From: a virus
IMG/VR virus record: IMGVR_UViG_3300009155_000158
Coordinates: 1-31,671 of that record
DNA: 31,671 nucleotides
Strand: one strand, 5' to 3'
Under the pieces are notes generated by a model, which was not told the origin of the DNA, searched no databases, and was given only the letters and a program-made list of their open reading frames with translations. Of this stretch, positions 1 to 2,421 are shown one piece after another. The first letter of the stretch is position 1; every line of letters starts with the position of its first letter. A program made the position numbers and the translations under genes.

Positions 1-6
1 CAAAGA

Positions 7-465
7 GTGGGAAGTCTTGCTGCAAGGCTCAAACCTCTGACTGCTCCGCAGCATCAATTCGCGACAGGAATCATCCAGGGTTTACCTATGAGACAGGCGT
101 ATCGGGAGGCTTACCCGATGGATCGGTCAAACGATGCAAGCGTGGCGGCTGCGGCCTATAAGCTAAGCAAACATCCCAAAGTCGTCAGGATGCTGAATGA
201 TGCCTGGGGTCAGACGGTCGAAGTGCTGGCGGATGATCTAGCGGCAACGAGGCGATGGGTGATGCGGGCTCTGGTTACGGCAGCAAGGGAAAGCAACCAA
301 GAAGGCTCAAGACTCAAAGCGCTCGAGCTTCTAGGCAAAGCATCAGGGGCGTTTACACAGGCCGCCGCCACCGCTCCCGAGCCCGTAACCGCCGACCAAC
401 TCAAGAAAGAATTGTCCGGTCACCTGCGCCTGCTGGACAACGTCAAGCCGATGAAGACGGGTTAG
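7..465 (+). CDS. terS: terminase small subunit (5' end possibly outside window)
   Basis: Likely the small terminase subunit, which recognises phage DNA and recruits the large subunit to start packaging. The first 60 residues fit the small-terminase pattern: QFATGIIQGLPMRQAYREAY is the helix-turn-helix region, followed by AAAAYKLSKHPKVVRML, where such proteins usually have repeated A and a 'p.V...' segment. The C-terminal half is helical and Ala/Leu rich (AARESNQEGSRLKALELLGKA). The start is uncertain: the GTG at position 7 is the first start in the window, but the frame is open to base 1, so the true start may lie upstream. At 152 residues it has a normal family length. The large subunit lies downstream after a 230-bp regulatory gap and a small regulator gene, which supports the call. 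Confidence 0.75.
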   Translation: MGSLAARLKPLTAPQHQFATGIIQGLPMRQAYREAYPMDRSNDASVAAAAYKLSKHPKVVRMLNDAWGQTVEVLADDLAATRRWVMRALVTAARESNQEGSRLKALELLGKASGAFTQAAATAPEPVTADQLKKELSGHLRLLDNVKPMKTG

Positions 466-518: not shown

Positions 519-574
519 GTACTACCGGTCACCCGTCCAACTGTAACGCTCTAATCCACTCTTACAAAACATCT

Positions 575-620
575 CCCCCCAGACCCCCCCCATCATCTCC
601 CCCTCAAAAACACCCCCCCC
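575..620 (-). other. four C-tracts: G-quadruplex (minus strand) / i-motif (plus strand) candidate
   Basis: The plus strand carries C runs of 6 (575-580), 8 (584-591), 5 (599-603) and 8 (613-620), separated by 3, 7 and 9 bases. The minus strand is therefore G8-N9-G5-N7-G8-N3-G6, which has the runs needed for a quadruplex, although the 9-base loop exceeds the strict 7-base limit. It lies between the terminase genes, just upstream of the promoter. The function is unknown; a packaging (pac/cos) or regulatory role is inference. Confidence 0.6.
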
Positions 621-642
621 TACATAAAATTTTAGGAAACAT

Positions 643-697: not shown

Positions 698-928
698 ATG
701 ACTGATCGGTGGAAAATTGTTTTGGACTTCATCAGGGCTTACACAAAGATCCATGGGGTTGGGCCTTCCTATGCGGTTTTGGCAAGTGGGTTGAAGATGA
801 AGTCCAGGGCAAACATGCATAGGATTGTGATGAGGTTAGAGAAGGAGGGTCATTTGGAGACTAGGACAAGGAAGTATTACTCTATTAAGTTGGTGGACAA
901 GTCTGTCAACGAGATAGCCAGCTTATGA
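698..928 (+). CDS. LexA-type winged-helix DNA-binding protein (no protease domain)
   Basis: A 76-residue protein that aligns with the N-terminal DNA-binding domain of LexA over nearly its whole length: IVLDFIRAYTKIHGVGPSY corresponds to LexA 'VFDLIRDHISQTGMPPT'. A recognition-helix region (KSRANMHRIVMRLEKEGHLE) and a wing (TRTRKYYSIKLV) follow. The LexA S24 self-cleavage domain is absent, so it would be a bare DNA binder that cannot self-inactivate. The ATG follows AAGGTGA with a long spacing. The gene overlaps the large terminase start by four bases (ATGA), which implies translational coupling. The coding region is AT-rich and uses many AGG Arg codons. It may repress its own promoter through the palindrome at 644-657. 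The fold call is firm; the regulatory target is inferred. Confidence 0.7.
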   Translation: MTDRWKIVLDFIRAYTKIHGVGPSYAVLASGLKMKSRANMHRIVMRLEKEGHLETRTRKYYSIKLVDKSVNEIASL

Positions 929-2421
929 CTCTTTTAACGAAGAAAGAGATTTCGGGGTACTTGTCTATTGTGGACAAGGTTCCGGAAGCTGAGCGGAACA
1001 AGATCTTTGCTCTTATGGAGATGGATCGGGTTGAGAGGTGTAGGGAGTCCTATCTTTTCTTTGTTCAGCAGATGTGGCCGATATTTATATCGGGTAAGCA
1101 TCATCAAATCATGGCGGATGCTTTTGAGAGGGTGGCATCGGGAGATTTAAAGCGATTGATCATCAATATGCCGCCCCGACACACAAAGTCGGAGTTTGCG
1201 TCCTTTTTGCTTCCTTCTTGGTTTTTGGGGAAGTTTCCTGAAAAGAAGATCATTCAGACAGCTCACACGGCAGAACTAGCTGTAGGTTTTGGGCGGAAGG
1301 TCAGGAATTTAGTCTCGTCAGAGCAGTACGCAAAAGTCTTTGATATGAAGTTGTCAAGTGATTCAAAGGCAGCAGGAAGATGGAACACTGACAAGGGAGG
1401 GGATTACTTCGCTATTGGGGTGGGAGGGGCTGTAACAGGCAAGGGCGCTGATCTTTTGATCATTGATGACCCTCATAGTGAACAAGAAGCCAAACAGGGC
1501 AACCCTGCGGTCTTTGATAACGTGTATGAGTGGTACACATCAGGCCCAAGGCAGCGTTTACAGCCTGGGGGAGCCATCATTATTGTTATGACCCGATGGT
1601 CTAAAAGAGACTTGACGGGTCAAATCCTTAAATCTTCTGATAAATCGGGGGTAGATGATTGGGAAATCATTGAATTTCCTGCCATTTTGCCTTCTGGCAC
1701 CCCTTTATGGCCTGGATTTTGGAGTAAAACGGAGCTTGAAGCGTTAAAAGCTGAGCTTCCGGTGTCTAAATGGGAGGCTCAGTACCAACAGAACCCCACT
1801 TCCGAAGAGGGGGCCATTGTTAAGAGGGATCAATGGCAGATTTGGCCTCATGATGATCCTCCAGATTGCAGTTATGTAATCCAATCATGGGATACGGCGT
1901 TTGAAAAGACCAATAGGTCAGACTATTCTGCTTGTACGACATGGGGAGTCTTTTCCCATCCGGATAAACATGGTAATTTAAAGCAGAACATCATCTTGCT
2001 CAATGCGTTTAAAGAGCGGATGGAGTTTCCGGAGCTAAAGAAGGCGGCCTTTGAGATGTGGACAGAGTGGCAGCCTGATACTTTGATTGTTGAGAAGAAA
2101 GCTGCCGGGGCACCATTGATTTATGAGATGAGGAAGATGGGAATACCGTTATCGGAGTACACACCGGGTAAAGGAAACGATAAGATTGCCCGTGTAAACT
2201 CTATTTCTGATCTTTTTGCGTCAGGAATTGTGTGGTGTCCGGATAAAAGATGGGCAGAAGAGGTTGTAGAAGAGATGGCTTCGTTCCCTAATGGGGATCA
2301 TGATGACCTTGTGGACTCTTCAAGTCAGGCTTTGATTAGGTTCAGGCAAGGCGGGTTCATCTCGATTGATTCGGATGAAAAAGATTACGAACTGCCCCGG
2401 CGACGGGTCGAATACTACTAA
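925..2421 (+). CDS. terL: terminase large subunit (ATPase/nuclease)
   Basis: The packaging motor that pumps DNA through the portal and cuts concatemers. The ATPase domain shows a Walker A-like NMPPRHTKSE (81-90), Walker B LLIIDDPHSE (177-186) and coupling motif VMTRW (221-225). The C-terminal RNase H-like nuclease shows Asp323 (SWDTAFE), Glu390 (IVEKKAAGAP) and Asp460, Asp461 and Asp464 (HDDLVDS). At 498 residues it has the normal length for the gp17-like Terminase_6 families. Its ATG overlaps the stop of the upstream LexA-like gene and has no strong ribosome binding site, so translation probably depends on coupling. The portal gene follows after nine bases. Confidence 0.96.
   Translation: MTLLTKKEISGYLSIVDKVPEAERNKIFALMEMDRVERCRESYLFFVQQMWPIFISGKHHQIMADAFERVASGDLKRLIINMPPRHTKSEFASFLLPSWFLGKFPEKKIIQTAHTAELAVGFGRKVRNLVSSEQYAKVFDMKLSSDSKAAGRWNTDKGGDYFAIGVGGAVTGKGADLLIIDDPHSEQEAKQGNPAVFDNVYEWYTSGPRQRLQPGGAIIIVMTRWSKRDLTGQILKSSDKSGVDDWEIIEFPAILPSGTPLWPGFWSKTELEALKAELPVSKWEAQYQQNPTSEEGAIVKRDQWQIWPHDDPPDCSYVIQSWDTAFEKTNRSDYSACTTWGVFSHPDKHGNLKQNIILLNAFKERMEFPELKKAAFEMWTEWQPDTLIVEKKAAGAPLIYEMRKMGIPLSEYTPGKGNDKIARVNSISDLFASGIVWCPDKRWAEEVVEEMASFPNGDHDDLVDSSSQALIRFRQGGFISIDSDEKDYELPRRRVEYY

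Follow-up and report, generated by a model that had tools for sequence, protein, structure and literature searches.

A conserved DNA element beside the terminase genes of freshwater phages is a candidate packaging-initiation region

The C-tracts that stand out upstream of the large terminase gene in the viral DNA analyzed here are the visible part of a larger conserved, terminase-linked DNA element; two of the four tracts are conserved boxes of that element (D and F) and two are private to this sequence. The relatives bearing the element are freshwater phages. It occurs once per genome beside the packaging genes, and is therefore probably the site where packaging starts. With a probability of roughly 0.5, the element is a packaging-initiation (pac-like) region that would be recognized by the small terminase (TerS) via DNA shape and that overlaps the control region of the terL operon.

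Layout of the element in the window and its relatives

The window was the 31,671-base virus record IMGVR_UViG_3300009155_000158, and all positions refer to it. Four C-tracts had been described in an earlier note made from the sequence alone, and their lengths and loops were confirmed exactly: C6 at 575-580, C8 at 584-591, C5 at 599-603 and C8 at 613-620, separated by AGA (3), ATCATCT (7) and TCAAAAACA (9). This is far above chance, as a three-C5-tract pattern at such spacing was expected 0.01 times per window in dinucleotide shuffles. The tracts had been placed between the small and large terminase genes. The gap is indeed 232 bp long, from the end of terS at 465 to the start of a LexA-like ORF at 698; because that ORF (698-928) precedes terL (925-2421), it is strictly the terS/lexA-like gap and does not join terS to terL directly.

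A TerL search of viral contigs yielded 80 close relatives, whose upstream regions were then compared. An 18-bp block was used as a search word to collect further contigs, giving a non-redundant comparison set of 82 elements. The layout common to the relatives consists of the block (TTACGCTCTAATCCACTC), about 23 nt, box D, about 18 nt, box F and an AT run (TATATATATTTT), usually followed by a palindromic operator and then the LexA-like gene. Box F, an all-G:C run of about 10 bp, directly abuts the AT run, and a near-invariant 16-mer is part of the conserved element. The features of the window are as follows.

1-465, plus strand: terS, small terminase, cut short at its 5' end by the start of the window (phrog_51 terminase small subunit, E=2.3e-7)
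492-514, no strand assigned: upstream C/G-run boxes (CCCCACCCACCGGGGGGAGACCC); G:C-rich columns at -53 to -47 and -43 to -33 in the block-anchored profile
532-534, plus strand: CCC box preceding the block by 14-12 bp; in 81 non-redundant relatives these positions are 91-98% C
544-561, plus strand: 18-bp block TAACGCTCTAATCCACTC (family TTACGCTCTAATCCACTC), the sole good copy in the window
575-580, plus strand: C6 tract, lineage-private, unconserved in relatives
584-591, plus strand: box D, C8 (family C5-8); C on the plus strand in 73/74
599-603, plus strand: C5 tract, lineage-private, unconserved in relatives
613-620, plus strand: box F, C8, the G:C run abutting the AT run
621-633, plus strand: AT run TACATAAAATTTT (family TATATATATTTT), following box F
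644-657, no strand assigned: perfect palindrome TGTATGTACATACA; most relatives have GAACGTTC-type sites instead
698-928, plus strand: LexA-like winged-helix DNA-binding ORF, 76 aa (PF01726 LexA_DNA_bind, E=1.9e-7)
925-2421, plus strand: terL, large terminase (phrog_38, E=2e-108; PF17289 Terminase_6C)

The block is partly ascertained by its use as a search word, and is also present in the terL-derived set. The length of box D was mostly 5-8 among the non-redundant elements, and the distance from the start of D to the start of the AT run was 36 ± 2 bp in the family. The corresponding distance of 37 bp in the window identifies the tract at 584-591 as D and that at 613-620 as F. Comparison of the gap in relatives, as the earlier note had proposed, thus placed these two tracts in the conserved element and left those at 575-580 and 599-603 private to the window. 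Box F was C-only in 23 of the 82 elements, C-then-G in 48 and G-only in 11; since its strand varies between lineages, the conserved feature is a run of G:C duplex and not a G-strand.

The tracts had originally been proposed to form a G-quadruplex or i-motif switch, and the minus strand of the window does carry four G-tracts of 5-8 bases. An oligonucleotide of that strand from the window may fold in vitro. As a conserved function the proposal fails: four C5+ tracts were found in 1 of 82 non-redundant relatives, the window itself, and the canonical G-quadruplex pattern was rarer (13/82) than the 21.9 ± 3.2 expected when tract lengths were kept and their order permuted, with none of 500 shuffles giving 13 or fewer. 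The strand of box F is not fixed, and a strand-specific quadruplex or i-motif would not tolerate change between C-only, C-then-G and G-only forms. A switch of this kind is accordingly regarded as extremely improbable. In the collection of papers searched, nothing relevant turned up about quadruplexes or C-rich tracts close to phage terminase genes.

The palindrome at 644-657 is the probable operator of the LexA-like protein. A LexA-like promoter had been suggested in the gap; the sequence in question is the perfect 14-bp palindrome TGTATGTACATACA, and no strong sigma-70 promoter was called in a scan of the window gap. The orphan Shine-Dalgarno sequence reported earlier is visible as GGAGGTG at 465-471, directly after the terS stop and with no start codon at a suitable distance. 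RNA folding of the gap was not compelling (z -2.0), and an Rfam search returned one chance match only (JPX_1, E 0.45). Within 14-60 bp after the AT run, the 82 relatives carried a GAACGTTC site (45), a half-site (16), a TGTAC-type site (8, including TGTATGTACATACA of the window) or no recognized site (13). Because the set was largely built on the presence of D, F and the AT run, this comparison establishes no more than that operators can be exchanged; the operator is a separate, exchangeable module. The putative operator type (TGCGAACGTTCGCA-type or TGTATGTACATACA) switches between lineages together with a residue in the recognition-helix region of the LexA-like protein, HRIVHRL often occurring with GAACGTTC, HRIVMRL with GTAC-type sites and HRIVKRL with half-sites. 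The palindromic operator adjoins a gene for a LexA_DNA_bind-like protein, as in LexA-type systems; unlike those, the operator here is exchangeable and C-box arrays remain in relatives without the LexA-like gene.

Copy number and linkage to the terminase genes

Good copies of the block numbered one per genome in 13/13 records. The AT-run sequence TATATATATTT/TACATATATTT was single-copy in each of the two complete relatives (G001 and G008), and the element defined as an S-run followed by TATATATA occurred once per complete genome apart from one weak match. G001 and G008 also have a single ORF each of about 3,000 codons (3007 and 3068 aa), which closes the rightward gene block. The palindrome GTTTAAAC was present about 49 times in 64 kb of G008 (L242-L245), mostly inside ORFs, and twice in the related G001.

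To examine linkage, 2.9 million viral contigs were scanned for D-N15-22-CCCCGGGGTATATATATTTT, a gene-blind pattern that does not use the block either. The scan returned 24 contigs, all at the terminase locus. The lexA-like gene followed directly in 24/24, terL came next wherever the sequence stretch extended that far, and terS lay upstream in most contigs reaching that far; the match without terL in view (L259) is a 1-kb stretch of a record having terL. A block scan gave 113 contigs, in which 126 block-like sites were tested: terL was found within 2.5 kb downstream of 111/126 and terS within 600 bp upstream of 111/126. Three sites with room for terL but lacking it (the second site of L105, L123 and L151) also lacked box F, and look like chance matches. 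The element was always upstream of terL and on the same strand.

More distant loci were reached by a profile search extending to TerLs at 64-74% identity. In most loci at TerL identities of 73% or less, no LexA-like ORF was detectable upstream. C-box arrays nevertheless preceded terL without the LexA-like gene in L316, L337, L327, L293, L304 and L339, and a related central motif (ATATATACATAGT, CGCTCAAAC) was present in some distant arrays. In the distant loci, C5+ runs averaged 15.4 bases/kb upstream of terL vs 2.4 in the terL body, and G-runs 5.1 vs 4.1. Many individual TerL relatives at 64-71% identity had no C-box array. L311 and L342 have a module CCCCCC-N18-CCCCCCGGGGGGTATATAATTTTT in front of a TerS-like ORF, which bears the TerS signature LELLGK and was recognized by eye and not by profile. 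Persistence without the LexA-like gene, together with this position before terS, indicates that the element tracks the terminase genes and not one particular gap or the LexA-like gene; the modular element remains beside terS/terL in relatives whose TerL has diverged to about 66% identity. No annotated phage was matched in a blastn search with the element region of a relative, the motif was absent from the upstream sequence read in the nearest named phages (023Pt_psg01, DSL-LC04, HTVC027P and HTVC023P, TerL 50-57%), and a PDB sequence search with TerL gave no match.

Packaging initiation and competing explanations

The suggestion of a packaging signal in the earlier note is upheld by association, and by association only: the element is found once per genome, beside the terminase genes, and is kept through TerL divergence and relocation. 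One cis site per genome near terS/terL, as is looked for in pac, was found. A Pfam search on TerS gave nothing convincing. An AlphaFold2 model from an 8-sequence alignment (overall pLDDT a modest 71.8) placed an N-terminal HTH at residues 13-54 (pLDDT ~90), followed by a long helix. The best named Foldseek matches were the SF6 TerS DNA-binding domain 4zc3 (TM(target) 0.78, prob 0.98, E 0.58) and the full-length SPP1-like TerS 3zqq (E 0.076, prob 0.90); these E-values are weak, none passing 0.001, and the predicted HTH resembles the SF6 domain at the level of the model.

In SF6, TerS has been proposed to select a segment of ~100 bp by its conformation, and the TerS complex to repress the terminase operon promoter as well (Greive et al., PMC4737164); in SPP1, pac overlaps late promoters (PMC6316719). 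The TerS proteins of pac phages, when purified, show weak binding and little preference for particular sequences (PMC9611059, PMC4737164). The element is comparable to the pac of these Bacillus phages in adjoining terS/terL, in overlapping the promoter region of the terminase operon, in the similar HTH of TerS and in the proposed recognition by DNA shape over ~100 bp (PMC4737164, PMC6316719). It differs in that the SPP1/SF6 pac covers promoters and the start of terS and has A/B/C box repeats, whereas the element here follows terS in the main group and has long G:C runs, a near-invariant 16-mer and an AT run. By analogy, the alternation of G:C and AT runs beside an operator/promoter region would fit the SPP1/SF6 model.

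Under this proposal the pac-like element would span ~90-130 bp and include the block, boxes D and F and the AT run. A TerS ring would bind or wrap this segment, the stiff G:C runs alternating with AT runs providing the shape signature; TerL would then be recruited and the first cut made nearby. TerS bound at the element would also cover the promoter/operator region of the lexA-like/terL operon downstream, which may couple packaging to terminase expression, as proposed for SPP1/SF6. A phasing of ~10.5 bp was not demonstrated.

The observed linkage would also be expected if the role were one of transcription alone, since the element invariably precedes terL and usually adjoins an operator. The block, D, F and the AT run would then be activator or repressor sites plus an UP-like element for the lexA-like/terL (late) operon, with no packaging role. 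The AT run does precede the operator/-35-like region by ~20-25 bp, most lineages have a LexA-like palindrome after it and the element is consistently 5' of terL on the same strand. Against this, operators are swapped while D-F-AT stays (D-F-AT being present largely by construction of the set), each genome has one element and not several at different promoters, the element persists without the LexA-like gene, and the sigma-70 scan of the window gap called no promoter; operon control is held to be a possible but minority explanation. Resemblance of the block to the T7-like promoter sequence TAATACGACTCAC is faint, and this candidate was rejected as the block is single-copy per genome. PF00940 (single-subunit RNA polymerase) had no match in 11 records, a search in which the controls gave no match either.

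The junction of a GC cluster with an AT-rich run beside conserved boxes may also resemble the arrangement of the bacterial basal origin unwinding element. Here the block and repeats would bind an initiator, box F would act as a GC clamp and TATATATATTTT would unwind. The element is present once per genome, the cumulative GC-skew minimum lies at it in both complete relatives, and parS sites, which are often near origins, occur in the element region in several lineages. The skew minimum, however, falls both where gene orientation changes and on the C-rich element itself. Unlike a bacterial basal origin, the element is linked to terminase genes and not to an initiator gene, none of which was seen adjacent, and it has no clear DnaA box array; it tracks terS/terL even when moved before terS. 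An origin is on balance unlikely. A Rho-utilization site or terminator for the terS transcript would call for a C-rich, G-poor RNA, and the linker has that composition (40% C and 6% G on the plus strand). Spacing fixed to ~2 bp, a near-invariant 16-mer and a strand-swapped box F are unexpected for rut, and the scan of the window gap found no plus-strand intrinsic terminator, which leaves this explanation highly improbable.

Contig ends bear on whether TerL makes staggered cuts within the element to give cohesive ends. Among 44 contig ends upstream of terL, 13 fell at 250-500 bp vs 0-9 in other 250-bp bins, an enrichment which, with one site per genome beside terS/terL, would suit a cos site. 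The ends were, however, scattered within the element and not at one point. Long contigs ending there are incomplete, one (G013, 53.7 kb) being without terL and another (G015, 57.8 kb) having an unrelated coding far end, which points to assembly breaks; contig ends at the element are best read as breaks at C-runs. Short end overlaps at different positions in G001, G005, G008 and G010 show that reads cross the element, and that alone; the ends as a whole fit pac and other modes of packaging equally. In L036 the contig end (1-65) repeats the element region as an inverted fold-back centered on CCCCCCTGTTTTAAAACAGGGGGG, probably an assembly or amplification artefact. The putative TerS-recognized site beside terminase genes is shared with lambda-type cosB/cosN and PaP3 cos; unlike in those, no fixed cohesive-end sequence was found, and the contigs of some relatives close at other positions. 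Because box F varies freely among C-only, C-G and G-only forms, leaving no fixed cohesive sequence there, and because the contig ends look like breaks, cos is not favored and is considered very unlikely.

parS-like sites and implications

Across ~2.0 Mb of viral loci, most of them retrieved from around terL, all parS-like 16-mers (TGTTTCACGTGAAACA, ≤2 mismatches) lay within the element or the region upstream of terL; by our own estimate ~0.02 would be expected at ≤1 mismatch in the searched loci. The lineages bearing them were L065/L072, L091/L141, L169, L184, L262, L264 and L287. A search of 14 records for a ParB_N domain, in which the controls worked, found none. Judging from the sites, these lineages may draw host ParB to the terminase locus. 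We tentatively suggest, as a narrower and rather doubtful proposal, a packaging site read by duplex stiffness and shape and not by sequence, in which a G:C run of ~10 bp, either C-only, C-G or G-only, at a fixed distance from a second C-run abuts TATATATATTTT, and in which several lineages would also capture host ParB via an embedded parS.

On the open question of how TerS recognizes viral DNA at its pac sites, the family provides more than 80 non-redundant natural alleles in which one box alters its sequence and strand and keeps its G:C content, length and spacing, and these make the DNA-shape model directly testable. As a candidate pac-like region, the element would also be a marker for locating the start of packaging in a widespread group of uncultivated aquatic phages.
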